DNA of 41,940 nucleotides, from IMG/VR virus record IMGVR_UViG_3300007538_007902, positions 1 to 41,940 of that record; one strand, written 5' to 3'. The stretch comes from a virus. The notes under the pieces are model-generated. The model saw only the letters and a list, made by a program, of their open reading frames with translations. It had not been told where the DNA came from and did not search any database. A program made the translations under genes and the position numbers. Numbering within the stretch: the stretch's first letter is position 1; every line of letters starts with the position of its first letter. Shown in pieces: positions 3,655 to 37,344 of this stretch.

Positions 3655-3656
3655 TC

Positions 3657-7769: not shown

Positions 7770-7772
7770 AAA

Positions 7773-9302: not shown

Positions 9303-9304
9303 TA

Positions 9305-9916: not shown

Positions 9917-10172
9917 AATTTTTGGCGAAACCTATTACTTGGATTTGCATGAAATGGAAAAAAAATCAGAATCACATACCCAATCAAGCGAAGAGTCTGA
10001 AAAAACAATAAGCCCTATGAAATTCGAAGTTTTGAAAACCATGGTAGATGTTATCATGTCAGAACAAGAACCAATGGATGAAATGCTATCTAGCAAGTCA
10101 AGGGAGGTAAGTATTCCCTTTAGGATTGCATTTAATACATTATTAGTTAATAATATTATTCAAAGTATTTAA
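9903..10172 (+). CDS. Small protein of unknown function
   Basis: 89 residues, overlapping the HAD-like gene by 14 bases. A second ATG two codons in (9909) is equally likely as start. The middle is rich in Ser, Glu and Lys (about residues 20-38). The C-terminal half looks helical, with a hydrophobic end (FRIAFNTLLVNNIIQSI). No motif recognised. Its position between the HAD-like gene and a glycosyltransferase, in phase with the operon, supports it as real. Confidence 0.55.
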   Translation: MQMFKIFGETYYLDLHEMEKKSESHTQSSEESEKTISPMKFEVLKTMVDVIMSEQEPMDEMLSSKSREVSIPFRIAFNTLLVNNIIQSI

Positions 10173-10177
10173 TCAAA

Positions 10178-22079: not shown

Positions 22080-23885
22080 TTATCTTAATTCTCTCAAGTC
22101 AAATGTTCTAACACCATCAACTGTGATTCTACCATAGAAACGGTTGTTAACCATCTTCTTAGCGTATCTAGTCATGATACCCTTGATAGGTGTGAAGTTG
22201 AATGGGTTATACATTGTTGGAGTTAATTGTAGAGGTACATATGGTGCGTAAACGTAACCAGTGTCAAGTAATGAAGTACCTTTGTGTCCCAACAATACTG
22301 TGTTAGGTGGGAAGTAAGGATCACGATATACTTGATATCTACCTGCTAATGTACCAACTCTTTCGATACCCATGTTGTATTGATCTTGCTCAGGAGCTGC
22401 GTTTGAAACGTGGAAGTACTCCAAGTCATCAAAAATAGCACTGATTTCAGAAGAAACAACGATCCAGTTAGCACCACCTCTCAATGTAGACTTGTGAATC
22501 TGAGCTGAGATTTGGTTGATAGCTGTGATAAGAGTTTGGTTCCAATCCTTTTGAGTGTATTGAGTTAAAGGATTTGCTGTAGTACCTCTCTTCCATCCGT
22601 TGTAGTCCCAACGTAATGTCCAAGCTGCACCTTTTCTTAAGTCTCTTAAGATTTCACGGTCGATTTCTGCTGCAACTTGCTCAGACAATAAAGCTGTTAA
22701 TTCAGCTTCAGCGTCGATGTTGTGGAAAGCAGAAACGTCTTGTGCTAATTCAGGAGACCATTGAGCTCTAAGTTTTCTTTCTGTAACAGATACTGTTACT
22801 GACTCAAGGTCGAAAGAAACTTCACCGATAGCATCTTCGAATTCTAATTCTTTGTAGATTCTGTAAGTTGCAGTGAACGCTGAGTTCGCGTTAGTAGCAC
22901 CTGAACCTGTAGTGTAACCTGAATATCCGTCGATAGAATCTGCAGTTACAGTACATGGAACTTGAGTGTCGATTTCCAAGTAGATAACACCATTTGCATC
23001 ACAAAGGTTGTCATAAGTACCACCGTTACCAGTAGTTGGGAATACAGTTGCAGTATTTGGATTACCGTACTGAACGATACCCTTACCATACTGTTGAGTA
23101 ACTACTCTGAACAACAAGTTACCGTTAGAAGCAACTGCTGAAGTTGAACTTAAACCAGAGAAGAAGTTGATTGCTGAGTTACCGTTGATAGCGATAGTCA
23201 ATCCCGCCAAGAACGCCTCGTTGTCCATTTCGTTTCCATCAGGACCTACAAGTTTACCAGCACCAGCGTTGTTGAAACCTGACATAGCAACAAGAACTTT
23301 TCTGAATTCAGTAGCCGCAGGATAGTTGTAAGCTAACATACTGTCACCTACCCATCTTTGAGTTACCAAGTTTACAGTTCTTGCTGAGTACTCACCCTTA
23401 GAGTAATCGAACAAACCTTCTGGATCTAATCCTGGTTCAGTACCTTCGTAGAATCTATCGTATAAGTTTTTACCAGATCCGTAACCTACGTTTGGATCAG
23501 TAGGTCCGTTTGGTGCTCCGATAGGTGCGAAGTGACTGTTATTTGCTCTGTTTTGAATTTTTGGTACGAAGTAGAACAATTTACCGATAGGTAAGTTCAT
23601 AGCTTGTACAGATACGATATCGTTAGCTAAAAGCTTAGAGAAAACTCTTCTAACGATTGGGAAAACTACAGTCTCGAATGAACCTGAATCTGTTGTAGAT
23701 GCAGCCTCATTGATTAAGTATGAAGCTTGGTTTTCGTATAACTGAGCTACGTTTTCCTTCAAGTGACCCTTAAGACCCTCAAGGAATCCTAATTTGTCCC
23801 ACTTGTTGATTGTGTCTTCTTTGATAACTTTCAAGTGCTTAAGACCGATGTTACCAACAAGACCTGATTCTAATAATGCTCCCAT
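22080..23885 (-). CDS. Major capsid protein, T4 gp23-like
   Basis: 601 residues. NQASYLINEAASTTDSGSFE near residues 52-71 followed by TVVFPIVRRVFSKLLANDIVSVQAM is the conserved gp23 region just after the cleaved N-terminal peptide. EAELTALLSEQVAAEIDREI near residue 390 and the C-terminal YAKKMVNNRFYGRITV are also typical. T4 gp23 is 521 residues, so this one carries roughly 80 extra, probably in surface loops (Gly/Asn/Thr-rich stretch at about 270-335). It is preceded by the scaffold gene by 21 bases and ends at a strong terminator. AGA is used for Arg (e.g. IVRRVF). Confidence 0.92.
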   Translation of the reverse strand: MGALLESGLVGNIGLKHLKVIKEDTINKWDKLGFLEGLKGHLKENVAQLYENQASYLINEAASTTDSGSFETVVFPIVRRVFSKLLANDIVSVQAMNLPIGKLFYFVPKIQNRANNSHFAPIGAPNGPTDPNVGYGSGKNLYDRFYEGTEPGLDPEGLFDYSKGEYSARTVNLVTQRWVGDSMLAYNYPAATEFRKVLVAMSGFNNAGAGKLVGPDGNEMDNEAFLAGLTIAINGNSAINFFSGLSSTSAVASNGNLLFRVVTQQYGKGIVQYGNPNTATVFPTTGNGGTYDNLCDANGVIYLEIDTQVPCTVTADSIDGYSGYTTGSGATNANSAFTATYRIYKELEFEDAIGEVSFDLESVTVSVTERKLRAQWSPELAQDVSAFHNIDAEAELTALLSEQVAAEIDREILRDLRKGAAWTLRWDYNGWKRGTTANPLTQYTQKDWNQTLITAINQISAQIHKSTLRGGANWIVVSSEISAIFDDLEYFHVSNAAPEQDQYNMGIERVGTLAGRYQVYRDPYFPPNTVLLGHKGTSLLDTGYVYAPYVPLQLTPTMYNPFNFTPIKGIMTRYAKKMVNNRFYGRITVDGVRTFDLRELR

Positions 23886-23906
23886 TTTAATTTTTTTTTA
23901 GGATGT

Positions 23907-25427
23907 TTATTTATTAATTTTACCCATTAAATCCTTCATTCTTAAGAACTGTGGATTTTCATAAGTTTTGCTCTCAATTAAAGTTGTAGAAGAACCAGCA
24001 GTTGGAGTTTGTTGTAGTTTTGTTTCAACAGACTCAGTTACAACTGATTGTGAACTTAATTCGTCTTTAACTGTCTTGTAAAGAGCTTTTGATTCCTTTA
24101 AAGTTTCAACATTGTCAAAACGTCTAAGGATGTTGATTTTTTCTTGTTTAGTCGTGGAGTTTTCAGTAAATAGTCTAACAGCATATGCAAGATTAGAATT
24201 GAATACTGCAACTTCGTTGAGCTTGTCTTTGAATATATTAAGAGCTTTTCTGTATTCGTCATTTTTAGCTCTTAATGATTCAACTTCTTCTGCGAGAGCA
24301 GAATTTGGAATTACTTTCATTTTAGGTAGTCCACCTTGTGGAGAATTTCTACGTCCGTTTCCTTTGGTTCTTGCAGCTTCAGTAGTTTCGTAATCTTTGT
24401 GTGACTTAGAGTCATCACCTTTCTTACCTCCCCACTCTTCGCTGGTTTCGTAATCTTTGTGTGACTTAGAGTCATCACCTTTCTTACCTCCCCACTCTTC
24501 AGTAGTTTCATAGTCTTTGTGAGATTTAGAATCATCACCTTTCTTACCTCCCCACTCTTCAGACATTTCTTCGATGTCTTCAGTCTCGGTTACACCACCC
24601 TTCAACTTAGAAGGATATTTGAAGTTTGGTTTACCCATACCTTCACCTTTTGGTTTTACTGTCATTTCACCTTCAGTCATTTCTTCAATGTCTTCGGTTT
24701 CTGTGACACCACCCTTCATCTTAGAAGGATATTTGAAGTTTGGTTTACCCATACCTTCACCTTTTGGAGTGACTGTCATTTTTTCTTCTGACATCATTTC
24801 CTCCTCATCATCGTCGTCTTCGTCATCCATTTCGATTTCGAATACGAATTCATCTTCCAAACCTTCTGCGTCTGAATCGTCGTCCATCATTTCGTCGATA
24901 GATTCCTCTTCTTCTGACTCACCAAGATCAATTTTATATTCAACATCAGAATTCTCATCTTTCAAATGAATTTCTTCTCCGTCTTTCTTTACAATGATTC
25001 CGTCTTCATCACCCATCGCTTTGAACACCTTAAGAATTTCTTCGTCAGATGCACCTGTCAAATCAAGTGGTAACATAACTTCCTCATCGTCCATGTCGAG
25101 TTCGAAGTCATCATCAGATTCTTCAGAGTCCATACTCATTGTGTCCAATTCGATTTCCTCCTCATCATCATTATCAGATTCCTCTTCTGTGTCGTCGATA
25201 TCGAGTTCCATTTCCTGTTCAGCCATTGTTGACTCTTCTTCTTTTTTTGAACTTTCCATCTCCATTCCTTCTCCAATCTCTTCTTCAAGAGATTCTTTTA
25301 CTAATTCTTTGATTTCTTCCTTCATAGTAGAAGCAAGTATTCCTTTTGCGTTTTCTGTAACGGCTTCTTCCAAATTTTTCATTTGTAGTAATGCCTCTTC
25401 AACTAAAGATTTTTCTTTATTACTCAT
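23907..25427 (-). CDS. Prohead core scaffold, gp22-like, with acidic region and internal repeats
   Basis: 506 residues. The first 60 are helical (LVEEALLQMKNLEEAVTENA). About residues 60-215 are extremely acidic. Residues 217-288 hold a 34-residue block twice (MTVxPKGEGMGKPNFKYPSK then xKGGVTETEDIEEM). Residues 290-349 hold three 20-residue copies of EEWGGKKGDDSKSHKDYETT. The last 120 residues (LRAKNDEYRKALNIFKDKLN) are the helical scaffold-like part. Position between protease and capsid genes matches T4 gene 22, whose product is only 269 residues; the extra length is the acidic and repeat region. Confidence 0.75.
   Translation of the reverse strand: MSNKEKSLVEEALLQMKNLEEAVTENAKGILASTMKEEIKELVKESLEEEIGEGMEMESSKKEEESTMAEQEMELDIDDTEEESDNDDEEEIELDTMSMDSEESDDDFELDMDDEEVMLPLDLTGASDEEILKVFKAMGDEDGIIVKKDGEEIHLKDENSDVEYKIDLGESEEEESIDEMMDDDSDAEGLEDEFVFEIEMDDEDDDDEEEMMSEEKMTVTPKGEGMGKPNFKYPSKMKGGVTETEDIEEMTEGEMTVKPKGEGMGKPNFKYPSKLKGGVTETEDIEEMSEEWGGKKGDDSKSHKDYETTEEWGGKKGDDSKSHKDYETSEEWGGKKGDDSKSHKDYETTEAARTKGNGRRNSPQGGLPKMKVIPNSALAEEVESLRAKNDEYRKALNIFKDKLNEVAVFNSNLAYAVRLFTENSTTKQEKINILRRFDNVETLKESKALYKTVKDELSSQSVVTESVETKLQQTPTAGSSTTLIESKTYENPQFLRMKDLMGKINK
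24381..24560 (-). repeat. Three tandem 60-base coding repeats
   Basis: Units at 24381-24440, 24441-24500 and 24501-24560, exactly 60 bases each and in frame within the scaffold gene, each coding one EEWGGKKGDDSKSHKDYETT/S. The first two units are identical except near one end; the third differs at several third positions. This points to recent slippage or unequal exchange. Confidence 0.95.
24564..24779 (-). repeat. Two 102-base coding repeats (34 aa), 114-base period
   Basis: Blocks at 24564-24665 and 24678-24779, separated by 12 bases coding TEGE, both encode MTVxPKGEGMGKPNFKYPSK and the GGVTETEDIEEM that follows. Only two residues differ (K/T and L/M), while silent differences are seen in the DNA. 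Confidence 0.9.
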
Positions 25428-25463
25428 CTTTATTTTTTTTGCAAACGTTATGGTTTATTTTAC

Positions 25464-25475
25464 TCTATAAATATA
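25464..25475 (-). promoter_or_regulatory. TATTTATA element upstream of scaffold gene
   Basis: The minus strand reads ATATTTATAGAG with its first motif T at 25473, 46 bases before the scaffold ATG and downstream of the terminator at 25512. It could start a separate scaffold-capsid transcript. Spacing is longer than at other copies. Confidence 0.35.
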
Positions 25476-25511
25476 TCCATTTTATAAAAAATTTAACATT
25501 GCAGTATAATG

Positions 25512-25542
25512 GGCAAAAAAAAATCAGGACTTAGTCCTGATT
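25512..25542 (-). terminator. Rho-independent terminator (minus strand)
   Basis: Perfect nine-base stem AATCAGGAC / GTCCTGATT (25522-25542) with a 3-base loop, followed on the minus strand by eight Ts and GCCC. It separates the protease/DUF4494 unit from the scaffold and capsid genes, so scaffold and capsid can be expressed separately. Confidence 0.85.
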
Positions 25543-25568
25543 AAAAAAATTTTGAAAAAAATTATTTA

Positions 25569-25775
25569 CTAAAAAACTTCATCAATTTTGCTTTCAGCTA
25601 CTGAAGTGATTCTCCACTCATGAGGAAAACCTTCAAATTTTTTTGTCACTTTCGCCTCAACTTCAGTGACGTTGTAACCTTGAACAAGTTTCTCTTCTCT
25701 GATTTTTTTGATTCTTCCTGAATTTTCATCGGGTAAATCATATTGTACTTTTGCTACAAAATATTTTTCGTCCAT
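25569..25775 (-). CDS. DUF4494-like small protein
   Basis: 68 residues: KYFVAKVQYDLPDENSGRIK then REEKLVQGYNVTEVEAKVTK, ending ITSVAESKIDEVF. This follows the pattern of DUF4494, a small family found mainly in Bacteroidota and their phages (WFxCKVxYxK ... EPYLVxAxxFTEAEA ... xIxxxKxxExF). No function is known. It lies 8 bases after the protease gene and is followed by a terminator. Confidence 0.6.
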   Translation of the reverse strand: MDEKYFVAKVQYDLPDENSGRIKKIREEKLVQGYNVTEVEAKVTKKFEGFPHEWRITSVAESKIDEVF

Positions 25776-25783
25776 AAAAAAAA

Positions 25784-26509
25784 TTAATTTCCTAAATAAT
25801 CAGATAATTTTCTCATTAAGTCAAGCGACTTATCCATTTTTGGTGAAGAGGTTACAACTCTTTCATCTTTTAATTTCTTTTCCTCCTCAAGATTTTCATC
25901 GTACTTGTATCTATCCTCTTTGTTTGAGAATAGGTAAGCCCCTGGTGTTGATGGGGATGATACCAAATCAAAACAGATTAATTCAAAATCATCTTGAACT
26001 TCATTTTGTTCACCCTTCTTAACTAAAGATCCAACGCCTCTTGATGATACACCCATAGTAACACCTTGTCTTAGGTAATTAGCTGCCATATCTCCCTTAC
26101 AAGAGATGACACCTCTTTCATGGAATCCAGGTGAAGTCAATAATTTTAATTTACCCATTAAAACATTACCTTCCCACCATATGTCGGTGATAATGTGAGA
26201 AACTCTATCTAAATCAATCAAAGAAGATTCAGGGTGATTTAACTCTGATAATGCAGTGCCCTTTTCGATTGCTTTCTTATAATTTTCAGCCTCTCTTCTT
26301 AAAACCTTTTCGGGGTAAATTCTACCGTTACGGTTTGGTGTATTGAATTTTTGTAAAACCGCATAAAACTCAAAAGGTTTTGAATAATCAAGTTGAGTTT
26401 TTTGCTCTTGTAAAACTTGCAAGTTTCTAGTGTCATATGGAGATACGTGTCCCGCATCATATTCAATTAGAATTCCTTTACCAATTTCCCCTGGAGTTAA
26501 AACTTTCAT
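25784..26509 (-). CDS. Prohead protease, T4 gp21-like
   Basis: 241 residues. Serine protease of the gp21/herpes assemblin fold that matures the prohead by cutting scaffold and capsid N-termini. NRNGRIYPEKVL (residues 59-70) is the conserved N-terminal motif; H92 in SELNHPESS is the likely catalytic His; S155/S156 in MGVSSRGVGS hold the nucleophile. PSTPGAYLF near 186 is also typical. The C-terminal 45 residues are charged and may be self-cleaved. T4 gp21 is 212 residues. Position before scaffold and capsid matches T4. Confidence 0.88.
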   Translation of the reverse strand: MKVLTPGEIGKGILIEYDAGHVSPYDTRNLQVLQEQKTQLDYSKPFEFYAVLQKFNTPNRNGRIYPEKVLRREAENYKKAIEKGTALSELNHPESSLIDLDRVSHIITDIWWEGNVLMGKLKLLTSPGFHERGVISCKGDMAANYLRQGVTMGVSSRGVGSLVKKGEQNEVQDDFELICFDLVSSPSTPGAYLFSNKEDRYKYDENLEEEKKLKDERVVTSSPKMDKSLDLMRKLSDYLGN

Positions 26510-26520
26510 AAATATTTTTT

Positions 26521-26530
26521 TATATAAATA
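26521..26530 (-). promoter_or_regulatory. TATTTAT-type late promoter candidate
   Basis: The minus strand reads TATTTATATA with its first T at 26530, 21 bases before the protease ATG and 4 bases after the upstream gene ends. Same element and spacing as before the portal and 17770 genes. Confidence 0.5.
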
Positions 26531-26533
26531 GTC

Positions 26534-26986
26534 TTAATTTTCAATATCGGTAACTTTGTCGTTTTTTGTTTTGTGTAAAGAAAAATATTCTGAGTCCAAC
26601 AAGTCAAATTTGTAGACATTCGAAATAATTGATTTTAATTTTTCTCGTAGGATGGGACTTTTAAAGTCCAAATCATTTTTAAGAAATAGTGTTATTTCTA
26701 AATTCATAAAACTTCTTTTATCCATCTGTATCCCACTACTTCTTAAGTCTAAATCGACAATAAAATTCTTGTCAAAATATACCCCATCTATAACTTCACA
26801 AACGGTGTGTTTAATTTTTCTGTGTAAATTTGATGTTGTTCTTTCCCACTGTTCCAATTCTTTTTTTGGTGATACCCAACTTTGTAAAACAATATAAACG
26901 GATTTAAAACTTTTAGAATCAACTGTTCCATAATGACACTTTGCCTTGTCGAACAGATTTATCTTGGATGTTTTTCCTTTTTTCAT
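26534..26986 (-). CDS. Protein of unknown function in head module
   Basis: 150 residues, basic N-terminus (MKKGKTSKINLFDKAKCHYG), alternating strands and helices in the remainder (NFIVDLDLRSSGIQMDKRSF). It lies where T4 has gp67/gp68 but does not resemble them in composition. No motif recognised. A CATTTAT element lies 14 bases upstream. Confidence 0.55.
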   Translation of the reverse strand: MKKGKTSKINLFDKAKCHYGTVDSKSFKSVYIVLQSWVSPKKELEQWERTTSNLHRKIKHTVCEVIDGVYFDKNFIVDLDLRSSGIQMDKRSFMNLEITLFLKNDLDFKSPILREKLKSIISNVYKFDLLDSEYFSLHKTKNDKVTDIEN

Positions 26987-26990
26987 TAAT

Positions 26991-27000
26991 CATATAAATG
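26991..27000 (-). promoter_or_regulatory. CATTTATATG element, weak variant
   Basis: The minus strand reads CATTTATATG with its first base 14 upstream of the ATG at 26986. One base off the TATTTAT motif and at the short spacing; weaker than the others. Confidence 0.25.
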
Positions 27001-27068
27001 TGAAATGTTTATTATATGGATAATAATAGAAACCAAAGAACCCTTTGTCAAAAATTGACAAAAATATC

Positions 27069-27081
27069 TATATTTATAAAA
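27069..27081 (+). promoter_or_regulatory. TATTTAT-type late promoter candidate for bS21
   Basis: TATATTTATAAAA, with the TATTTAT part starting at 27071, 20 bases before the bS21 ATG at 27091. The spacing matches five other genes and would place bS21 among late genes. Confidence 0.5.
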
Positions 27082-27090
27082 AAAAAATTA

Positions 27091-27285
27091 ATGATTCACA
27101 TTGAAATAAAAAAGGGGGAAAATATCGATAAAGTATTAAAAAAATACAAATATAAGGTTATTAAAACCAAACAGTTAGATAACCTTAGAAACAAACAAGA
27201 ATTTGTAAAAAAATCTGTTCAGAAACGTAAAAATAAATTGAAGGCGATTTACACCCACAAAATTAAATCCAAAGAACAAGATTAA
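27091..27285 (+). CDS. rpsU: Ribosomal protein bS21, Bacteroidota type
   Basis: 64 residues from the ATG at 27091, chosen because bS21 begins there (MIHIEIKKGENIDKVLKKYK) and a promoter-like element lies just upstream; an in-frame ATG at 27016 would add 25 unrelated residues. The sequence LDNLRNKQEFVKKSVQKRKN followed by KLKAIYTHK matches the Bacteroidota form of bS21, with a highly basic C-terminal helix. bS21 sits near the 3' end of 16S rRNA and in Bacteroidota helps cover the anti-Shine-Dalgarno. It is the only plus-strand gene inside the head module. Its stop shares two bases with the stop of the convergent gene. Confidence 0.88.
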   Translation: MIHIEIKKGENIDKVLKKYKYKVIKTKQLDNLRNKQEFVKKSVQKRKNKLKAIYTHKIKSKEQD

Positions 27286-28010
27286 AGATTTTCTTTGAGT
27301 TGTTTCAACTTATATAACGAAACCAACTCAATCTCAGATTCGTTAATTTTATCGATGGTTTGTTGAACCGTAGTTTTTAAATCTTCATCTCCACCTTGTA
27401 GTGATTCTTGTAATTTTTCAATAACTTCCTCTTTGGTGGTATTATATTCCTCAACAAGTTGTTTTTTATTTAGGGACAACAAATATTTTAATTCGTTTTT
27501 GTCACTTTCATTCAAAGAAGAATATTCACTATTGAATGTGTTAGCAGCTATCTTCAACATGGAAGACAAGGGTAGATTAAGTGATTCGTTAATTTTCTTC
27601 GTTTCTGAAGATTTTAAAACTTTTTTGATTTCTAATTTTGCCTCTACGACGTTCTGTAATTTTGTTACTGAATTCGTGTAAATAACAGTATCAATATTGG
27701 AGTATGAATTTTCTACGTCACTCTCGACTAACGTGTCAACCCAAGTCTGTAATGCCTCAATTTCTTTTTGAGATTTTTCTATCAGAGATTTTAACGTAGA
27801 AAAACTTTCGTTGATATATTCTGTGGCAACTTCTTCTGTCAAAGATTTTTTAGTCAACAAATCGTCGTACATGTAGAAAACTTTGGAAAGATTTTTACTT
27901 TCCAAAACAACAGTTTTAAAATTCTTCATGATTGATTTGAAGGATTCCTTGCCATAATTTTTAACGATGGCATTTTCAAAATTACTTTTAACTTGTCCGA
28001 ACGATTTCAT
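27282..28010 (-). CDS. Helical protein next to portal, possible prohead core component
   Basis: 242 residues, almost entirely helical and charged, with many Asn-Glu-Ser triplets (YINESF, INESLN, INESEI) and coiled-coil stretches (FSTLKSLIEKSQKEIEALQT). In T4 the genes between portal and protease are the minor prohead core proteins 67 and 68; position and composition suggest a similar role, but there is no clear sequence match. It starts 21 bases after a TATTTAT element. Confidence 0.55.
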   Translation of the reverse strand: MKSFGQVKSNFENAIVKNYGKESFKSIMKNFKTVVLESKNLSKVFYMYDDLLTKKSLTEEVATEYINESFSTLKSLIEKSQKEIEALQTWVDTLVESDVENSYSNIDTVIYTNSVTKLQNVVEAKLEIKKVLKSSETKKINESLNLPLSSMLKIAANTFNSEYSSLNESDKNELKYLLSLNKKQLVEEYNTTKEEVIEKLQESLQGGDEDLKTTVQQTIDKINESEIELVSLYKLKQLKENL

Positions 28011-28020
28011 ACTTATTTTT

Positions 28021-28031
28021 TTTTATAAATA
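28021..28031 (-). promoter_or_regulatory. TATTTAT-type late promoter candidate
   Basis: The minus strand reads TATTTATAAAA with its first T at 28031, 21 bases before the ATG at 28010 and immediately after the portal stop codon. Confidence 0.5.
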
Positions 28032-29876
28032 TCATTCATCTAGTAACTCACTCAATTTTTTTGACATCTCACTTAATGATGACTTTGCTTTAGATAAATC
28101 AATTTCTAAATCTTCACCTAAGAAGTTGTCATTTTCTAAGATTAAATTCAAATCTTTTTCTTTTGACTCAGGAACTGTTTCTGTTTCAGGTGTTTCTGGT
28201 GTTTCTGTTTCCGCACCAATATCAGTTATACCAGCACCTCCTAATTCGGCACCTAAATCACCACCTAAGTCAGCACCTAAGTCCTCACCTGCACCACCTT
28301 CTTCACCACCTTCAGTTGCTTCCTCACCAGGTTTTTTACCATAAAGTTTATCAATGTTGTCAAACAGACCTGTGTGTATAATAACTTCTGGTGTTTTTTC
28401 TAATTCAGATGCAACGGCTTTTTCGATACGTTGTTGTTGGATGTCTAATTTGATTTCTTCGTCCGAAAATCCGAGTATATGTTTTTTTGCCCATGAAGAA
28501 GAAACTGGTTGTATTCCGTTTCCTGGATCCGCCACAGCATCTTTGTATAGTTGTATTTTTTGTTGCCAATTTTCTACTTTTAACAAATCCGCCTGCGTTG
28601 ATGGGTTCGTCAAAGAAAGTGTAAAATTTGAAAGTTCATCTTCGAAACCTAATACATACAAGTGAATAATTGCAATTTTATTCAACTCTTGTATCATAGA
28701 TTTTTGTATCTTGTTGATAGTTCTAGCAAAACGAATGTCTTGTAGGGCTAAGTTTTTACCATCACCTACTGTCTCTTCAAACCCTAAAAACGCCTTAGGG
28801 ACTCTCAAAGCCGTTAATAATTTCTTTTGGATATATTCAATATCCGCAATTTCTGAAAGATTTTGTGCACCTGGTAAAGTATCAATTGGATTGGGTGCGT
28901 TTGGATCTCTTACAGGAATAAAGTAGTCTTGATCCACAGCCATTTGGTTGTATCTCAAATCCACGTTTCCTGTTTTATTGTCAACTACAGTATCTCGTTT
29001 GAATTTGTTTGCAACTCTTTGTACATATGGTTCCACATCTTTGTCATCCATATTTCCAACAAATACTTTAAAGACACGTCTTTCAGGTGCTCTTGAGACA
29101 CGATAAATCATCATCGCGTCTTCCGACAAAAGAAGTTGTTTCCAAATTCTTCTTGCTTTTTCCAACATCGAAGTACCATAAGGTAATTTTCTGTCATCAC
29201 CTAAAAGTCTAAAGTGAGCAATTTCCCATGTGTTAAATTCCAAATCTTTATTTTTCCAAGTGAACTTCAACCCTCTACTCTCACCTTGTTGATTCTGATC
29301 TAATGGTTTGTACTTCATACCACGCTCGATACGTTCCATCTCAATATTAGGAAGTTGTTGACATCCTACAACCCCCTTTTCAGGATCTAATTTCAAATAC
29401 ACGAAGTTATCACCGTACTTACATGTGTTTCTCGTCCACATCGGTAGGTTGGTGTTAACGTCCAACTTGTTATTAAATAAATCGGCTAAAACAGATTTGA
29501 TTCTTTTAGATTCAGAATATATTTGTAACATGAATCCATTCTCATTTGTTGTTGTGGATTCTTCTGCGTAAATGTCCAAAGCTGCTGAAATTTCAGGTGT
29601 ATACTCCATACTCTCATAATCGTAGAACGCTGAAAGTCTTGTGGGTTCGTAATATACTGACTGAGTATAAAGATTACTTTCAACCTTTGCCCACTGCTGT
29701 CCTAAGTATAGAGTCTGTTGTGCCTGTAATTTTTCTTTATCGTACTCTTGTTTTGAAGTGGTTCGTAACAACTCTTTTTTGTCGAATTGATAAACAGGAG
29801 TTTGTTGATCCAAAGTGGAATCTGGACCGAATACTTTACTTAACCTCTGCCAAACCGTTAGATTATTATCTGCCAT
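28032..29876 (-). CDS. Portal vertex protein, T4 gp20-like
   Basis: 614 residues. Forms the dodecameric ring through which DNA enters the head and to which the terminase docks. YRVSRAPERRVFKVFVGNMD near residue 260 and the following KTGNVDLRYNQMAVDQDYFI, then DTLPGAQNLSEIADIEYIQK and LRVPKAFLGFEE, are the conserved gp20 blocks. T4 gp20 is 524 residues; the excess is mainly a C-terminal low-complexity tail (about 509-575) of Gly, Glu, Asp, Ala, Thr and Pro, followed by an acidic helical end. It lies 48 bases after the terminase gene, as in T4 once the tail genes 18 and 19 are removed. Confidence 0.92.
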   Translation of the reverse strand: MADNNLTVWQRLSKVFGPDSTLDQQTPVYQFDKKELLRTTSKQEYDKEKLQAQQTLYLGQQWAKVESNLYTQSVYYEPTRLSAFYDYESMEYTPEISAALDIYAEESTTTNENGFMLQIYSESKRIKSVLADLFNNKLDVNTNLPMWTRNTCKYGDNFVYLKLDPEKGVVGCQQLPNIEMERIERGMKYKPLDQNQQGESRGLKFTWKNKDLEFNTWEIAHFRLLGDDRKLPYGTSMLEKARRIWKQLLLSEDAMMIYRVSRAPERRVFKVFVGNMDDKDVEPYVQRVANKFKRDTVVDNKTGNVDLRYNQMAVDQDYFIPVRDPNAPNPIDTLPGAQNLSEIADIEYIQKKLLTALRVPKAFLGFEETVGDGKNLALQDIRFARTINKIQKSMIQELNKIAIIHLYVLGFEDELSNFTLSLTNPSTQADLLKVENWQQKIQLYKDAVADPGNGIQPVSSSWAKKHILGFSDEEIKLDIQQQRIEKAVASELEKTPEVIIHTGLFDNIDKLYGKKPGEEATEGGEEGGAGEDLGADLGGDLGAELGGAGITDIGAETETPETPETETVPESKEKDLNLILENDNFLGEDLEIDLSKAKSSLSEMSKKLSELLDE

Positions 29877-29885
29877 GTACGAATT

Positions 29886-29897
29886 TTATAATAAATA
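29886..29897 (-). promoter_or_regulatory. TATTTAT-type late promoter candidate for portal
   Basis: The minus strand reads TATTTATTATAA with its first T at 29897, exactly 21 bases before the portal ATG. It is identical over 12 bases to the element before the 17770 gene on the opposite strand. Confidence 0.6.
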
Positions 29898-29924
29898 GTA
29901 ATATTTTGATAATTAAACTAAAGT

Positions 29925-31688
29925 TTATTTACCAAATAACCAAGAATACTTTAGGTATTCTTCTCTAGTTGGGTTATTGTTGAACTGTGACATCCTTTCA
30001 TTTGGGAATACAGGTACATTTGGATCAAAACTCGTTACATGAGTGTTTGGAGAATTATTCACCGTCCAACTCTCAACCATAGCCTTAGTAACATCCGTTA
30101 CTTTGTCCAATTGCGTAAATGAAGTTTCACCAACATAAATTGGCATCGCACAAGCCATAATCAAATCATCATGCTGTCCTTTCAAGTGATCTGGACGCCC
30201 ATTTACATAAACAAACGTGTTGAGTTCATTCAACAACCTAGCGGATCTTATTTTGAATCCATGTCTCAAAGCTTCTTCAAAAGCAGCAACAATTTGAACC
30301 CTCTTATTATTGAAGTTTATACCCGGTATTTTTTCATCTGCCTTTGGATTGTACTTCCATTTGTCAGCCAAATTTATTCCATCTATATATAAGTTTTTGT
30401 ATCCCAATTCCTGCATTTTACGTGAAGTAGAAACTCCCATGCCACCTGTTATATCAATAACTACAAATGCATTATACATGATTGCCCATTTCATAGCAAC
30501 GTCAGCAGCAACATCAGGTGGAATCTTACCTAAATACTCGAGTACTTGTTCTCTTTCGTCAAAATCAACAATACAAAAAGTAGTGAAGTCCTCAGAATCT
30601 CCTCTTGAAACGTCAATTCCCATAATGTATTTATGTCCCATTTCAGGTTCTTTCCATTGCCATAACGCACCTCCCATAAATTTATTTTCAGGAGGGGTAA
30701 TAAAATTTTCTTTGATTTTTTCAATCGTGTCAGGAGGTATAACACTATCACCAGAACCTAAAAAATTACATTCTAATTCTTGTGCAATTTTTCTCCTATC
30801 GAATTTCAATTTTTTAGCCATAGATTCAAACCAAGAAGAGTATGGTTTGTATCCATCGTTAAACTTTGATTTCAATTCTTCAAAGTCTCTTTCTCGTGGT
30901 GAAACTTCGCTGTAATCAATGGTGATTTCATCATCTTTATAGTCCTCACGATTTAACATGTAATGAACTATATCCTTGACTTTCAGTAGTTTTAAATCTT
31001 TAGAATATCTTGGATCGCGATACCAAAACATTTCCGTGATTTTGAAATCATTCATACCACGAAGTGCTTGTTCGTAAATACCATAATAAATCGGATCGAA
31101 TCCATTAGGTGTTGAAATAACAATTACTTTACCACCTGTTGAAAGTGATGCCATACAAGCTGACCAAAAATCATCATCAGCATCAATGTAAGCAGCTTCG
31201 TCAAAAATTAATATAGTAGGTGTATAACCTCTCAAGGCGTCTTTTGATGTTGCAACGGCTTTCACCTCACAACCATTACTTAATTTAAAATGTTTCTGAG
31301 CATTTTTCTCATTCGAAAATCCAACACCAACCCAAGAAGGCCATTGTTCAACAAAGGCACGGATTTTATTTGCCATTTCAATTGCCGTATCTTGTTTGTT
31401 TGCAATGATAAGAATTTTTTCTGGTTTTGTTTTTTTTGCAAAAACCAATCTTTTTGATGCCCATGCAGATGTTACCGTAGACACACCCGCTTGTCTATAC
31501 TTCAATGCAATGTTCTCTTCGTGTGTATCGTAATCTTCAATCAAACTTACTTGATCCGGAAACAATTCCAATGGGACATACTTCGATTGAGTGTTGTCGT
31601 ATGTCTGCAAATATGTTTTGAGAGCATACGGAGTATTCCTCAAACATTTTGCATATTCCAATAAGACTTGTTCTTTTGTCAAAGACAT
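29925..31688 (-). CDS. Large terminase subunit, T4 gp17-like
   Basis: 587 residues. Packages DNA into the prohead. ATPase domain: variant Walker A RQAGVST (65-71), Walker B with acidic pair in ILIFDEAAY (D163, E164), coupling motif VISTPNG (190-196). Nuclease domain: D359 in MGIDVSRGDSED, D412 in VVIDITGGMG, and the HDD pair (D507/D508) in HDDLIMACAMP. Length is near T4 gp17 (610). It is the first recognisable gene of the head module and follows the 421-residue gene by 20 bases, so it may be transcribed with the unknown genes upstream. Confidence 0.95.
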   Translation of the reverse strand: MSLTKEQVLLEYAKCLRNTPYALKTYLQTYDNTQSKYVPLELFPDQVSLIEDYDTHEENIALKYRQAGVSTVTSAWASKRLVFAKKTKPEKILIIANKQDTAIEMANKIRAFVEQWPSWVGVGFSNEKNAQKHFKLSNGCEVKAVATSKDALRGYTPTILIFDEAAYIDADDDFWSACMASLSTGGKVIVISTPNGFDPIYYGIYEQALRGMNDFKITEMFWYRDPRYSKDLKLLKVKDIVHYMLNREDYKDDEITIDYSEVSPRERDFEELKSKFNDGYKPYSSWFESMAKKLKFDRRKIAQELECNFLGSGDSVIPPDTIEKIKENFITPPENKFMGGALWQWKEPEMGHKYIMGIDVSRGDSEDFTTFCIVDFDEREQVLEYLGKIPPDVAADVAMKWAIMYNAFVVIDITGGMGVSTSRKMQELGYKNLYIDGINLADKWKYNPKADEKIPGINFNNKRVQIVAAFEEALRHGFKIRSARLLNELNTFVYVNGRPDHLKGQHDDLIMACAMPIYVGETSFTQLDKVTDVTKAMVESWTVNNSPNTHVTSFDPNVPVFPNERMSQFNNNPTREEYLKYSWLFGK

Positions 31689-31708
31689 TTTTTTTAGATT
31701 GGGTAGGT

Positions 31709-32974
31709 TTATTTAGCCGGTCCTATTCCCAATGTACCTAAGAAATCTGTAAAGTCATCATCATCGTCATCGTCTGATAAGAAATCCAAGGCAGATTTAT
31801 ATTCCTCATCACGTAATTCACTTATGATTTCATCTACCATTTTCTTAACAATCATTTTTCCGTCTTTAGAACCTGAAAGTATTTTCTTAGCAACATCAAA
31901 GAATTCTTCAGTTGTCAACATAGAGAATCTTGAAAATAGATAATTCTGAATTTCCTTCATATCATCTTCAAATAGTTCATCAGGATATGATTCAACGAAT
32001 TTTTCCCAAATTACAGGACCGAGTCTCAAATCCCAAATTTCATATGGTAAGGTATCTTGGGATGCCATAACCATTTCCGCCTGTCTTGGATCATCTGGTA
32101 ATCCCTGACTTCCCAAAACTTCGTAAACTCCTTTGATAAGTTCGTGCACGACAATTGGGAAAAATAATCCTTTAGCTTTGATTGTAGGTGGATCAGTCTC
32201 GGTTTCAAGTTCTACAGAACCTTCTGCTCCTGAACCTGAACCCGCCATCATAGACATCGCCTCGTCAGGCATAACCCAATATAGCAAATCATTTATTGAC
32301 ATAATGATACCATAAAGGTTCAAAAGTTTCTCATCAATATTATTCAACTCGTTTCTGACTAACTCGAACATGTAATGTCCTTTTTTTGAAGCACCTTGTA
32401 TGAGTGAATTTATGAACCTTCTCTTTGCTTTTTCCATGTCAAATTTTTCGAATGCATCGATAAAGTTCAATACATCTTCTTCAGCCTCATCTTGAGTTAC
32501 ATTGAACTCTTGTTGGATTTCTTCCGATGAAGGTTCTTCGGACTGTCTTCTCATTTTACTTGTATCCACCTGTCCCATACCTGTAGATAAATCTACATCA
32601 TATTGGAATGTTCCTTCAGGGATTGATAATTCTCTTTTAACCAACTCCACTGCTAAATTTTCAAGTTCAGTTTTGTGCTGATTTTCTATTTGTTTGATTT
32701 GTCTAACGGCATTCATCATCATCATTTGAAGTTGCATGAACGCATTTTGATTTGTAACTGATTGTACTCCGGTATATCTTTTTACTTTATCAATAACATC
32801 TTTGAATCTTTTGGATGCAATAATTTCTTCAAATGAGTCAGTTTCGGATTGAGGTAGCGCGGGATTATCTGAGAAAGGAGTCTCACCTTTTTCAATTTTA
32901 GATTGTAAAGAAGGATCCATCCTTTCAGGTGAATCATATGAAATAGGCGCCTCTTGTATTTTATTTTTTTTCAT
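31709..32974 (-). CDS. Conserved-looking protein of unknown function upstream of terminase
   Basis: 421 residues. N-terminal part disordered (APISYDSPERMDPSLQSKIE), then helices with many Met and Gln (FMQLQMMMMNAVRQIKQIEN), then a segment KRRFINSLIQGASKKGHYMF and NLYGIIMSINDLLYWVMPDE, and an acidic end with seven consecutive Asp. The central block looks familiar from other large phages but I cannot name a family. It overlaps the upstream gene by 14 bases, in the unit leading into terminase, so a packaging or virion role is possible. Confidence 0.6.
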   Translation of the reverse strand: MKKNKIQEAPISYDSPERMDPSLQSKIEKGETPFSDNPALPQSETDSFEEIIASKRFKDVIDKVKRYTGVQSVTNQNAFMQLQMMMMNAVRQIKQIENQHKTELENLAVELVKRELSIPEGTFQYDVDLSTGMGQVDTSKMRRQSEEPSSEEIQQEFNVTQDEAEEDVLNFIDAFEKFDMEKAKRRFINSLIQGASKKGHYMFELVRNELNNIDEKLLNLYGIIMSINDLLYWVMPDEAMSMMAGSGSGAEGSVELETETDPPTIKAKGLFFPIVVHELIKGVYEVLGSQGLPDDPRQAEMVMASQDTLPYEIWDLRLGPVIWEKFVESYPDELFEDDMKEIQNYLFSRFSMLTTEEFFDVAKKILSGSKDGKMIVKKMVDEIISELRDEEYKSALDFLSDDDDDDDFTDFLGTLGIGPAK

Positions 32975-33737
32975 CTTTAAACTGAATATTCAAACTTCCA
33001 AACTTCAACTCATCTGGAAGCTCAGCTTTTGGTGCTGGTTTATGTTTCGGTTGATAAGGAGTTTTTCTCTCGGGTTTACTTGGTGTTTTAGTTGGTGTCT
33101 TAGTTGGTGCCTCTTTTGTATCTGCTTCTACTAAATCCAAAAAATCTTTTTTACTCATTTGAGGTGGAAGGTGTTTGTGAATCAAATTTAATAAAGCTGA
33201 CTCTACTATGTCAACTTTTTTCTCAAAAGATTCATTATTTACCTTTTTAGGTAACCTATAAAAATCTGTTTTGTCCGAAAACTCTTTCGCCATTTTACAC
33301 CATTTAGAACGAGGTCCCTCTTCTTCGCATTTTGCAAAGAAATATCCCTGTTGTGCTTCTGATTTAAATTTTTCTTTTATTTCTCCATCGGACATCATTT
33401 CTCTATTATCACCAGAGTCATCACCCATACCATCGTCTGCCATATCGACTTCATCATGGGGTGGTTGTTGTCCGGTATAAGCACTCATAGCATCTTTACC
33501 CAACGCATTTTGAGAATCTAAATCATCCCCTTCGTCTTCATAAACCTCAAATGGTTTTTTTTCACTTTTGAGTCTGTTGATTGTATCGGTGTCACTCTTA
33601 CTCACCATAGTAACTTCTGACACCATTCTTTTGTATAGTGCGTTAATTTGTTTCTTATCCAAAGATTTGATAGTTTCATATTTGAAACCTTCCTTAATCA
33701 AACGAATTACTTTTGGGTTAATCTTATTCATTTTCAA
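32961..33737 (-). CDS. Unknown protein with Pro/Lys-rich C-terminus
   Basis: 258 residues. Basic helical N-terminus (INPKVIRLIKEGFKYETIKS), acidic linker (about 65-115, with DMADDGMGDDSGD), then a short region with two cysteines (FFAKCEEEGPRSKWCKMAKE), and a repeat-like Thr/Pro/Lys tail (KEAPTKTPTKTPSKPERKTP). It overlaps the genes on both sides by 14 bases. Family not recognised. Confidence 0.6.
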   Translation of the reverse strand: MKMNKINPKVIRLIKEGFKYETIKSLDKKQINALYKRMVSEVTMVSKSDTDTINRLKSEKKPFEVYEDEGDDLDSQNALGKDAMSAYTGQQPPHDEVDMADDGMGDDSGDNREMMSDGEIKEKFKSEAQQGYFFAKCEEEGPRSKWCKMAKEFSDKTDFYRLPKKVNNESFEKKVDIVESALLNLIHKHLPPQMSKKDFLDLVEADTKEAPTKTPTKTPSKPERKTPYQPKHKPAPKAELPDELKFGSLNIQFKDEKK

Positions 33738-34134
33738 CTAGATTTTTATCAAATTTTAAAACGATGTCACGTTCATATAGTTTATCTTTTACACTTTCAA
33801 TTTTTTCACCATAGTGAAAAACTAATCTTTTATATCCATTTTGGACATACTCTGAATCGGTGTTTTCCCAAGCCAAAGAAATTACATTTTCTACGGCATC
33901 ATAGACAGAAAAAAAGTCGGAGTTTTGTATCAAATTCAAATTTATTTCTGAATTTTTCAAAACTCCGACAGTCTCTATAAAATCTATATATGGTGGAGTT
34001 GGTTTACCACCTGCTGGTTCGTAATCCCAGTAATCACCCTCAACATTATCTACATTCTCACCAAAAATGAACTCATAGATATTGTCACCTTTATAATTAG
34101 GCCCAAGAGCATTTACGTAGATTAGAAAACTCAT
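33724..34134 (-). CDS. Unknown protein, possible neck/tail component
   Basis: 136 residues: SFLIYVNALGPNYKGDNIYE at the start, YIDFIETVGVLKNSEINLNL in the middle. Mixed alpha/beta, no motif I can name. It overlaps both neighbours (4 bases upstream, 14 downstream), so the four genes from 35351 down to 31709 form a coupled unit. Confidence 0.6.
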   Translation of the reverse strand: MSFLIYVNALGPNYKGDNIYEFIFGENVDNVEGDYWDYEPAGGKPTPPYIDFIETVGVLKNSEINLNLIQNSDFFSVYDAVENVISLAWENTDSEYVQNGYKRLVFHYGEKIESVKDKLYERDIVLKFDKNLVENE

Positions 34135-35351
34135 AGTAATTCACCTGTACGTGTAATTTTTACTTGTTTACCATCCGCCTCGAAAACCAAATTTTTCAAG
34201 TTAGTTTTACCGATGAACTTTAAATTATTACTTTCTTTAACCAAAAATTCTGAAGCTAACTCTTGCTCAACAGTCTCAGCAAATTCTTTGATAACTTTTT
34301 TTACCGAAACGTTTTTGATTTTATTTTCTATGAATTTTTTTACTTTTTTTTCTTGTTCTGCTTTAACTTCAGATTCATTAATTTGGTAGTACTTCGATAA
34401 AACTTTATCTATCTTAGACTCGGAATAAACAGATTCCTCTGTTTCCATTTCAGGTTCTAACTCAACTTCAGAGTCAATACCTAAATCTAAGTCATCTCCA
34501 CCTAATTCTACATCCAAATCAGTTTCATCATCAACACCATAGTCGATACTATCTTCATCCTCTTCAAAGTACGCTAAAATATCTTCTCTATCAGCCTCAT
34601 CCAAGTTGTTCAAATCAAGTGCAGATAATATAGAGTTGATAACGTATTTCATGTTGTCTGAGGTTAAACCCTCAGCTTGATCCATTTTTCTTAATTTTTG
34701 TCCCAACTTACCTGTTAACTTTTCGATGGTTTTGAAGTTCATTTCATCTTCTTCATCGTCAACAGAAATCTCTTCATCACCCATGTCGCCACCCAATTCA
34801 GCATCTATGTCAATATCACCTTCCGCTTCATCAGCAGCATCCATTTCAATATCCAAGTCATCACCCGATGGTGTGTCAACAGCATCTACTGATAAATCGG
34901 CATCTACAGATGGTGAGGGATCATCACTTGCTGGTGTGTCTTCAATCGCGGGAGTATCATCAACTTCAACTTCAGGAGTTTTCAGAACAAATTTCTTCTG
35001 TTCTCCAAACATGTTGATACCTTCTTGATTTTCGTGAATTCTGTTTAACTCACCAGCAACCAAATTGATTTTTTTCATTGCCTGTGAAAATGACTTATAA
35101 TACTTTCTATTTTTCATTGGTTCAATGTAATCTAATTCAGATTCATTGATTCCCTTTTTTACAATGTAACCTGATTTTTCTCTTACGATTGTATAGGTAT
35201 GTCCATCAGCCAAGACTCTTGAATACTCATTTGTTGATGATTCATTTATCTCGGACTTAGGTGTCTCACCATATCTTGCAATTTCCATAATTCTTGCAAG
35301 TTTGGACTGTCCTGTCAATTTTTCACTACCAATAGGTTTTAAATCTCCCAT
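34131..35351 (-). CDS. Acidic, probably virion-associated protein
   Basis: 406 residues. Residues 45-110 form an ordered domain (VLADGHTYTIVREKSGYIVK; YKSFSQAMKKINLVAGELNR). Residues of about 125-325 are extremely acidic and Ala/Ser/Gly/Thr-rich (VDADLSVDAVDTPSGDDLDI). The last 80 are basic and helical, ending in a small strand pair (VFEADGKQVKITRTGELL). The layout echoes the scaffold protein, with ordered ends around an acidic core. Function unknown. Confidence 0.6.
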   Translation of the reverse strand: MGDLKPIGSEKLTGQSKLARIMEIARYGETPKSEINESSTNEYSRVLADGHTYTIVREKSGYIVKKGINESELDYIEPMKNRKYYKSFSQAMKKINLVAGELNRIHENQEGINMFGEQKKFVLKTPEVEVDDTPAIEDTPASDDPSPSVDADLSVDAVDTPSGDDLDIEMDAADEAEGDIDIDAELGGDMGDEEISVDDEEDEMNFKTIEKLTGKLGQKLRKMDQAEGLTSDNMKYVINSILSALDLNNLDEADREDILAYFEEDEDSIDYGVDDETDLDVELGGDDLDLGIDSEVELEPEMETEESVYSESKIDKVLSKYYQINESEVKAEQEKKVKKFIENKIKNVSVKKVIKEFAETVEQELASEFLVKESNNLKFIGKTNLKNLVFEADGKQVKITRTGELL

Positions 35352-35364
35352 TTTTCTTTTTTTG

Positions 35365-35535
35365 TTAGTTGTTTAATCCATTGTAACCACCTAATGTGAT
35401 TGCATTACTTTGTGTGACAGTTTGAGTAGGATCTTCCCCTTCAGTCCAAGTTGGGTGTGGACTGTAAAATTCTGAAACAACACCTAAGGTGTCACCTGAA
35501 CCAGGTAAATAACCTACAACATTCTGATCTGCCAT
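35365..35535 (-). CDS. Small protein of unknown function (56 aa)
   Basis: Open frame from ATG (35533-35535) to TAA (35365-35367): begins MADQNVVGYLPGSGDTLGVV and ends ITLGGYNGLNN. It is 13 bases upstream of the 406-residue gene and 22 bases downstream of a TATTTAT element, so it appears to be the first gene of the long minus-strand unit. Composition (Gly, Thr, Asn) suits a small virion or assembly protein. Confidence 0.55.
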   Translation of the reverse strand: MADQNVVGYLPGSGDTLGVVSEFYSPHPTWTEGEDPTQTVTQSNAITLGGYNGLNN

Positions 35536-35545
35536 AACAATTTTT

Positions 35546-35557
35546 ATTAAATAAATA
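35546..35557 (-). promoter_or_regulatory. TATTTAT-type late promoter candidate
   Basis: The minus strand reads TATTTATTTAAT with its first T at 35557, 22 bases before the 56-residue gene. It would drive the unit leading through the unknown virion genes to terminase. Confidence 0.5.
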
Positions 35558-35600
35558 TACGGAAATATGTGTTTTGTATTTTTTTACACCCAAATGTATG

Positions 35601-36350
35601 TTATTCCACAAAATTTTGTTCCAAAGACAATCGTTTGTCTACTAACTCATTTGTAAAATCAAATAACTTTTGTATGTAACCGTTTCTTCTAAGAAATTTG
35701 AAGACTAAGTTTTCGTAAGAATATTCTCCTGTTGACTCCAAACCAATTGTTCTATATTTCTTTAATTTATCTTTGATTCCATCAATTATTTTTAACGCAT
35801 CATCCAATTCATCATCTTCAACTTCATCGATGGTTGCATCTATCAAATCCATCCAAGTGTTAACTTTGGATTTCAATTTTTCTTTATCAATTGTCACTTC
35901 ATCTTGAGATGGGGTTGCAATCCATTCATCAAATAAAACCGAATAAACTCCAGTCGAAAAATGAGACTCCGACGTATCTTGAACATACATCTCAACATCG
36001 AACCCTTTTACCTTGATATTGTGGGTGGAATTAAATAAAGTTTTTTTCAATTTGAAAAGTTCAATTAATAAATCTTTTTTTTCTCCTGATTCCTTAAAGT
36101 CATAAAGAATATGTAAATCGATGTCGGAAAACTCACTCCAATTATAATTTGCAAGAGAACCTGTCATGTGTACGTCTTGAACAAATATTTCTACACCCAA
36201 AAAATTTACAAATTCATTTGCAATTTCCAAAAGTTTTTCCCTTACCGAAGGTATCATTTTACTTTCGGATGAATCAGGATTTTCCCAAATCTGTGAGTTT
36301 AGTGAATCTTGAACAAAAAAGCTAGAAATTATTTTATCGAATTCTGTCAT
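35601..36350 (-). CDS. Pol beta-superfamily nucleotidyltransferase
   Basis: 249 residues. HMTGSLANYNWSEFSDIDLH (residues 61-80) contains the GS motif (G64, S65) and the two metal-binding aspartates (D76, D78) of the minimal nucleotidyltransferase fold; a third acidic residue may be D120 or E121 in the KGFDVEMYV region. The remainder is helical. These enzymes transfer a nucleoside monophosphate to protein, RNA or small molecules; the target here is unknown. I see no partner antitoxin-like gene beside it. Downstream of a TATTTAT element 13 bases before the start. Confidence 0.75.
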   Translation of the reverse strand: MTEFDKIISSFFVQDSLNSQIWENPDSSESKMIPSVREKLLEIANEFVNFLGVEIFVQDVHMTGSLANYNWSEFSDIDLHILYDFKESGEKKDLLIELFKLKKTLFNSTHNIKVKGFDVEMYVQDTSESHFSTGVYSVLFDEWIATPSQDEVTIDKEKLKSKVNTWMDLIDATIDEVEDDELDDALKIIDGIKDKLKKYRTIGLESTGEYSYENLVFKFLRRNGYIQKLFDFTNELVDKRLSLEQNFVE

Positions 36351-36351
36351 A

Positions 36352-36363
36352 CCATAATAAATA
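36352..36363 (-). promoter_or_regulatory. TATTTAT element at short spacing
   Basis: The minus strand reads TATTTATTATGG with its first T at 36363, 13 bases before the nucleotidyltransferase ATG. If it is a -10 element the message would have almost no leader. Confidence 0.4.
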
Positions 36364-36368
36364 GTATG

Positions 36369-36617
36369 TTACTTTTCTATTTTTTTATATTTGTATTTTT
36401 TTGATATTTCAACATTAAAAAATTTTCCTTGTGACTCTGCCATTCTAAATTTTGTATAAGTTTGGTGTGGAACATTTTCATATTCATATTCAGCACCATT
36501 GTTGAATGTGGCAATCAAAGACTTGTTTGAGGTATCATAAACGGTTTTTTTCAAATTCGAAGATTCAATTTCGTTTATAATCTTTGTTCCTTCTATTTTT
36601 TCATTAACTACTCCCAT
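36369..36617 (-). CDS. KTSC-domain protein
   Basis: 82 residues. LIATFNNGAEYEYENVPHQT and the following YTKFRMAESQGKFFN match the KTSC fold (xLxxxFxxGxxYxYxxVPxxxYxxFxxAxSxGxyFN), a small domain often found alone or fused to lysyl-tRNA synthetase-like and phage proteins. Biochemical role not known. It lies 5 bases after the next gene upstream. Confidence 0.8.
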   Translation of the reverse strand: MGVVNEKIEGTKIINEIESSNLKKTVYDTSNKSLIATFNNGAEYEYENVPHQTYTKFRMAESQGKFFNVEISKKYKYKKIEK

Positions 36618-36622
36618 GGTTT

Positions 36623-36934
36623 TTAATCTTGTAAAGGTGTTTCCAAATCTATATTACGAAAAAAAGAGACTAAGTAATCACTATATTCTTTTTCTTCTTT
36701 GGGGTTTTCGATTAATCCATACTTCCTTAACACACCATTAAGTTCAATCGTGCGGTTGATAATCCTATCTCTTGTAACATACATCTCACGAGTCAAACCT
36801 TCCCCTTTTTCTAATTGATAATTTTTTACATTATTTTCTTGGAACAAATTTCTTAGATGATAATATAAATTCAAAATCTCATCCAACTTTTTTTGTCCTA
36901 CTGTATTTAAAAATTTTTCCCAAGGTTTTTCCAT
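36623..36934 (-). CDS. Small helical protein of unknown function
   Basis: 103 residues from the ATG at 36934 (MEKPWEKFLNTVGQKKLDEI). An upstream in-frame ATG at 36952 would start inside the promoter-like element and the terminator, so I prefer 36934. All helical, with an RDRIINRTIELNGVLRKYGL segment. No motif recognised. Confidence 0.55.
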   Translation of the reverse strand: MEKPWEKFLNTVGQKKLDEILNLYYHLRNLFQENNVKNYQLEKGEGLTREMYVTRDRIINRTIELNGVLRKYGLIENPKEEKEYSDYLVSFFRNIDLETPLQD

Positions 36935-36946
36935 AATATATAAATA
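36935..36946 (-). promoter_or_regulatory. TATTTAT element abutting start codon
   Basis: The minus strand reads TATTTATATATT directly before the ATG at 36934, first T 12 bases upstream, and just downstream of the Hsp20 terminator. Predicts a leaderless transcript if it is a promoter. Confidence 0.4.
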
Positions 36947-36951
36947 CAACA

Positions 36952-36974
36952 AACCCCCACTTGTGGTGGGGGTT
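36952..36974 (-). terminator. Hairpin terminator after Hsp20
   Basis: Perfect nine-base GC-rich stem AACCCCCAC / GTGGGGGTT with a 5-base loop, starting 4 bases after the Hsp20 stop. No long T-run follows on the minus strand (TGTTGTATTT), so strength is uncertain. Confidence 0.7.
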
Positions 36975-36978
36975 ATTG

Positions 36979-37344
36979 TCAGAGGACTTCAATTATGTTT
37001 TTTTCTTTTTCTTTTTTCTTAAATGGGAGATTAATCTTAAGAATACCATCCTCGACAGTTGCTTTAATTTTTGACGCTTCAACACCTTCGGGTACTGAAA
37101 AACTTTTGTCGACATCGTATGAATGAAAATCAGATTCGTACTTGCATTTAATTTTTAGATTTTCACCTTCTACGGTTACTTTGACATTTTCTTTTGATGA
37201 ACCAGGAACCAACATTTCGAAATGGTAACCTGTTTCGTTTTTTATTGAGTGGTAATTTCCACCCGTTGTATATGTTACGGTTGGAACGTCCCATGAATTA
37301 AAGAAATGATCTAATAAAGAATTTCTACGTGTGGTTAAAAACAT
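36979..37344 (-). CDS. Small heat-shock protein, Hsp20 family
   Basis: 121 residues. After a short N-arm (SLLDHFFNSWD) comes an alpha-crystallin domain: NETGYHFEMLVPGSSKENVK, then KYESDFHSYDVDKSFSVPEG, and the signature ATVEDGILKINLPF near residue 97. It ends IIEVL, which carries the I-x-V/I-type tail that docks between dimers. An ATP-independent holdase that keeps unfolding proteins soluble. Hsp20 genes also occur in T4-like cyanophages. Divergent from the ClpC-like gene, with a shared 174-base control region. Confidence 0.88.
   Translation of the reverse strand: MFLTTRRNSLLDHFFNSWDVPTVTYTTGGNYHSIKNETGYHFEMLVPGSSKENVKVTVEGENLKIKCKYESDFHSYDVDKSFSVPEGVEASKIKATVEDGILKINLPFKKKEKEKNIIEVL

Follow-up and report, generated by a model that had tools for sequence, protein, structure and literature searches.

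Our comparative analysis of a 41,940-nucleotide virus record (hereafter the window) identified positions 27091–27285 on the plus strand as a genuine phage gene for ribosomal protein bS21, of the kind found in T4-like myoviruses of Bacteroidota. The identity and context of this gene, its retained Tyr54, the purifying selection on it and its relatives, the Shine-Dalgarno (SD) status of the leaders and the element preceding them are direct observations. As a reading of these sequences, we propose that a late, feedback-free supply of phage bS21 would maintain the ability of ribosomes to use SD-less mRNAs and should reduce translation of the host bS21 gene, rpsU, and we give this proposal as a whole an even chance of being right.

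A bS21 gene within the phage head module

The open reading frame extends from an ATG at 27091 to a TAA at 27283–27285 and encodes 64 amino acids. It matches PF01165 (Ribosomal_S21) with 35.3 bits against a curated cut-off of 27, residues 3–55 of 64 covering profile positions 1–53 of 55, and scores 27.2 bits with TIGR00030, slightly below the cut-off of 28.95. The best PDB matches by phmmer were 9i5v (2e-10) and 7jil (1e-9), which cover residues 1–60/61; 7JIL is the Flavobacterium johnsoniae ribosome (PMC9723584). An earlier note on this DNA had called the product a Bacteroidota-type bS21, and the protein indeed aligns along the length of bS21 in both searches, the property on which that note had made its claim depend. 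The AF2 model contains two helices (residues 12–35 and 41–63; pLDDT 82, pTM 0.38). A second in-frame ATG further 5′, at 27016, would give an 89-residue reading frame, which we set aside in favour of the shorter one since homologues align at 27091. The record carries a single bS21 copy.

Within the head block (22080–37344) bS21 is the sole plus-strand gene, so that the module is interrupted exactly as the earlier note had described. The major capsid protein (MCP; Gp23 family, 22080–23885), a probable scaffold (23907–25427, assigned from its position between protease and MCP), the head maturation protease (25784–26509), the portal (T4 Gp20 family, 28032–29876) and the terminase large subunit (TerL; 29925–31688) are all encoded on the minus strand. 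This also applies to the two immediate neighbours of bS21, to which no function is assigned and which have homologues in relatives: the divergent gene X (26534–26986, 150 amino acids) and the convergent gene Y (27282–28010, 242 amino acids), whose stop codon overlaps that of bS21 tail-to-tail in a common TTAA. At the end of the block, an Hsp20 chaperone gene (36979–37344, minus strand) lies near a gene for a ClpA/B-like AAA protein (37519–39540, plus strand); Hsp20 and Clp genes are among the frequent neighbours of bS21 in phages (PMC9723584). Elsewhere in the window, a long plus-strand run of sugar-nucleotide and glycosyltransferase-like genes occupies 197–12045, with GDP-fucose synthase-like (4715–5641), DegT aminotransferase (5638–6795), GDP-mannose 4,6-dehydratase-like (6792–7769) and HldE-like (8159–8575) genes.

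Scans of IMG/VR revealed many relatives of the bS21 locus. Searches with bS21 yielded 61 distinct pairs of protein and leader, 54 of them in the syntenic lineage, and a search with X added 49, giving 103 syntenic leaders that belong to one related lineage and are thus non-independent events. Seven loci were set aside as members of other lineages (L040, L056, L211, L213, L273 and L274) or as host-like (L222). In all other loci compared, bS21 lies between X and Y homologues on the opposite strand; as far as the contigs extend, one flank carries protease, scaffold and MCP, and the other carries portal and TerL. L222, an IMG/VR contig, carries a host-like bS21 and a host-like leader, is nearly identical to host locus L260 and is probably host sequence within the viral collection.

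Of the 80 closest loci with X, 78 have a detectable bS21 next to it. The two others, L315 and L333, retain X and Y with no detected bS21, the X–Y spacing in L333 being 86 nt; bS21 can therefore be missing from a locus that has both X and Y, which weakens the candidacy of X as a dedicated bS21 partner comparable to the gene that Chen et al. named bS21_CN. In L315, different small open reading frames lie between X and Y. For an AF2 model of X (pLDDT 87.6), a fold search at E≤0.001 found nothing in the PDB and, in BFVD, a single uncharacterised myovirus protein; sequence comparison with PDB and Pfam gave nothing credible.

Leaders of the phage and host genes

A candidate late-type element, TATTTATA, occupies 27071–27078 on the plus strand and begins 20 nt upstream of the bS21 ATG, at the distance claimed in the earlier note. 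Sense TATTTAT occurs within 45 nt of the start in 11 of 47 window genes versus 0.44 expected from the genome rate; 1000 shuffles gave a mean of 1.5 and a maximum of 6, and the antisense motif was found at two of the 47 starts. A chance origin is thereby ruled out. Among the relatives, the motif lies within 40 nt upstream of bS21 in 101 of 103 syntenic phage leaders, the exceptions (L157 and L337) each differing by one base. By comparison, it is absent from all 99 host rpsU leaders, an uneven sample made up of 32 loci near the query, mostly Saprospiraceae, and of class-level loci picked towards the upper bS21-score ranks.

The same motif precedes other genes of the relatives, namely the protease (42/42), the scaffold (39/41), Y (43/46) and the portal (24/34), and is scarce or absent before TerL (7/32), MCP (0/31) and X (0/49). 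As regards a possible late co-transcription of bS21 with the capsid genes, what was observed here is an upstream TATTTAT shared with several head genes; phage bS21 has been found to be transcribed together with MCP (PMC9723584). If TATTTAT is a promoter, its absence from MCP leaders implies that MCP transcription would begin at another site, which could lie upstream of the scaffold. Among relatives, between 4 and 23 nt separate the end of the element from the bS21 start, a variation that would fit a promoter better than a ribosome-binding element. With the element only 4–6 nt before the ATG, the bS21 message would have little or no leader. TATTTAT also stands before several genes of a cultured phage, Flavobacterium phage immuto, and in the literature we searched no late motif described for Flavobacterium phages was found. 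A window gene at 12045–12809 (plus strand) shows a weak resemblance to the sigma-70 family (TIGR02937, E 0.002, below cut-off), and its product could be a late sigma factor reading TATTTAT. Moreover, L040 and L056, from another phage bS21 lineage lacking the YKVIKTKQ block described below, carry TATAAATA in their leaders, which we take to be the T4 late-promoter octamer.

SD sequences in the window are about as rare as chance. Pairing with the anti-SD at dG≤−6 was found for 2 of 47 curated starts versus 0.7 expected from shuffled leaders, and the 52 listed open reading frames include one AGGAG (8159) and one distal GAGG (15162). The leaders are A-rich, with about 0.5–0.6 A at positions −13 to −3 compared with 0.33 in the genome. 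The earlier note's picture of A-rich leaders in an SD-poor genome therefore holds, and SD-like motifs, whose common occurrence it had named as contrary evidence, are rare. Since Bacteroidota hosts are themselves SD-less (PMC9976891), SD-poor leaders are to be expected of their phage.

The leader of the window bS21 has a dG of +1.6 and thus lies outside the range of exceptionally strong SD sequences (dG below −13; McNutt 2023). A dG of −6 or lower was found in 7 of 103 syntenic phage bS21 leaders versus 49 of 99 host rpsU leaders, all values assuming the canonical 16S tail, which would give too low a count for hosts whose anti-SD is altered. The phage leaders are related by descent, and for this reason no significance test was applied to them. 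The seven cases also mean that an absence of SD from every phage bS21 copy has to be rejected. SD-like sequences are present in the phage leaders of L346, L284 and L285, the first with a full GGAGG, and autoregulation was possibly retained or regained in these three.

Conservation and divergence of the phage protein

The earlier note had pointed to the residues that contact the 16S 3′ end, and here the comparison revealed strong conservation: the window bS21 has Tyr54, the residue that in F. johnsoniae stacks on A1534 of the 16S 3′ tail (PMC9976891), and 57 of the 58 distinct phage proteins have it too. In length, profile match and Tyr54 the window protein resembles Bacteroidia host bS21 such as that of F. 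johnsoniae (7JIL), but it differs in having a phage-type block (YKYKVIKTKQ, residues 19–28, in the window), K41 for P41 and the upstream TATTTAT, and the phage copies mostly lack a strong SD. Residues 21–28 are nearly fixed as YKVIKTKQ in the phages versus K/R-K-F-E-K-T-G in hosts, the distinguishing positions being Y/F21, V23, I24, K27, Q28 and K41 in phages versus K/R21, F23, E24, G27, V/I28 and P41 in hosts. Among 15 equal-length phage pairs with measurable dS, dN/dS was 0.02–0.13 in 13 and 0.20 and 0.21 in the other two, indicating purifying selection on phage bS21; pairs of unequal length were dropped because an indel may misalign them. A phylogeny against host copies, which had been suggested as a check, recovered 53 phage proteins in one group with weak support (80/32), while their placement among the Bacteroidota copies is poorly resolved with 64 columns.

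Proposed feedback escape and alternative roles

Many host rpsU genes are autoregulated via a strong SD, and ribosomes lacking bS21 or its C-terminus perform worse on SD-less mRNAs and better on the strong-SD rpsU message (PMC9976891). Against this background, phage bS21 would probably be made late with the head genes, from the TATTTAT promoter element, and would probably replace host bS21 in host 30S subunits. Its retained Tyr54 would hold the 16S 3′ tail in the pocket, giving bS21-replete ribosomes that initiate best on SD-less mRNAs, which are the phage's own messages. As the phage gene combines a late-type element with a leader without strong SD, replete ribosomes would not repress it, and the supply of bS21 would be feedback-free; ribosomes filled by the phage protein may in turn translate less host rpsU. 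The further step, in which the SD autoregulation of the host is exchanged for a phage late element and phage bS21 captures the feedback loop to turn down host rpsU, is put forward tentatively and is, judged from the leaders compared, somewhat doubtful. Our confidence in the proposal and in this step is limited because a strong SD is missing from half of the host rpsU leaders sampled, and the actual host may likewise have no SD autoregulation. The seven SD-like syntenic phage leaders, including that of L346, and the restriction to a single lineage also count against the proposal. Furthermore, the bS21 of pelagiphage HTVC008M, likewise a myovirus protein but of proteobacterial type and from another host and lineage, has been shown to enter E. 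coli ribosomes, which are then nearly inactive (PMC6375957); incorporation of bS21 thus need not help.

The mechanism offered in the earlier note, that hiding of the anti-SD biases ribosomes towards phage messages, is not sustained. Nearly all Bacteroidia host messages are SD-less as well (PMC9976891), and host bS21 already occludes the anti-SD, so occlusion alone gives no discrimination between phage and host; among host messages, it is the strong-SD rpsU itself that should be at a disadvantage. Real discrimination would need to come from the block at residues 21–28. Chen et al. proposed such a specialised ribosome, in which the block alters the mRNA path and phage messages are chosen over those of the host. 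The near fixation of the block in phages, unlike in hosts, and the location of the divergent residues in a helix near the mRNA (PMC9723584) would suit this proposal, but A-rich leaders mostly devoid of SD are common to phage and host and offer no evident feature to select, and we consider it rather unlikely from the sequences compared. It is quite unlikely that the phage gene merely makes up for bS21 lost when host synthesis stops, with no regulatory effect. Purifying selection and the exchangeability and late joining of bS21 (PMC6375957, PMC9976891) agree with a dosage role, which leaves unexplained both the nearly fixed phage block and the presence of bS21 without its pocket partners: 14 related phage records (partial) contained no bS18 and no bS6 above cut-off, one weak bS6 match (17.4 bits) in G214 being below it. 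A non-ribosomal role, for example packaging into the virion with head proteins or action on RNA, would accord with the location inside the head module, and encapsidation was mentioned as possible by Chen et al. (PMC9723584), but the rRNA-contacting Tyr54 and the two-helix form are kept and bS21 lies on the strand opposite the head genes, making such a role very improbable. A host DNA fragment or assembly artefact, for which L222 provides a precedent in a viral collection, has negligible probability and is refuted by the dozens of contigs in which bS21 has the same head-gene neighbours; the phage-type leader and block of the window gene also speak against it.

The gene, its context, the conservation of Tyr54 and the idea of a late takeover are already published (PMC9723584), and the window is a further member of this group. 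The bS21 gene of the Bacteroidetes myoviruses described by Chen et al. in 2022 is likewise opposite in strand to its surroundings and flanked by two hypothetical genes, with TerL, portal, prohead protease and MCP nearby, and its product has an aromatic residue 54 and divergence around residues 21–28; the likeness to the window, a 42-kb fragment, was drawn from gene order and bS21 residues. The main text of that study was not found to cover the leader element or the SD status of phage bS21. Phage immuto (NC_055915) resembles the window in the order of a T4-like TerL (28% identity), portal, protease and MCP, and no homologues of bS21, X or Y were detected within the 31.5-kb stretch of it examined. 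McNutt et al. discuss phage bS21 and propose autoregulation as a counter-defence; their discussion, as drawn on here, leaves the leader of phage bS21 aside (PMC9976891). Our literature search, of incomplete coverage, found no comparison of phage and host bS21 leaders, and we claim no priority for ours.

No ribosomal protein is more common in phages than bS21, and what they gain from it is unproven. The contrast between phage and host leaders allows feedback escape to be told apart from message selection, a distinction that is absent from the published hypothesis, and it provides a specific, testable prediction for rpsU reporters in F. johnsoniae, an established model.
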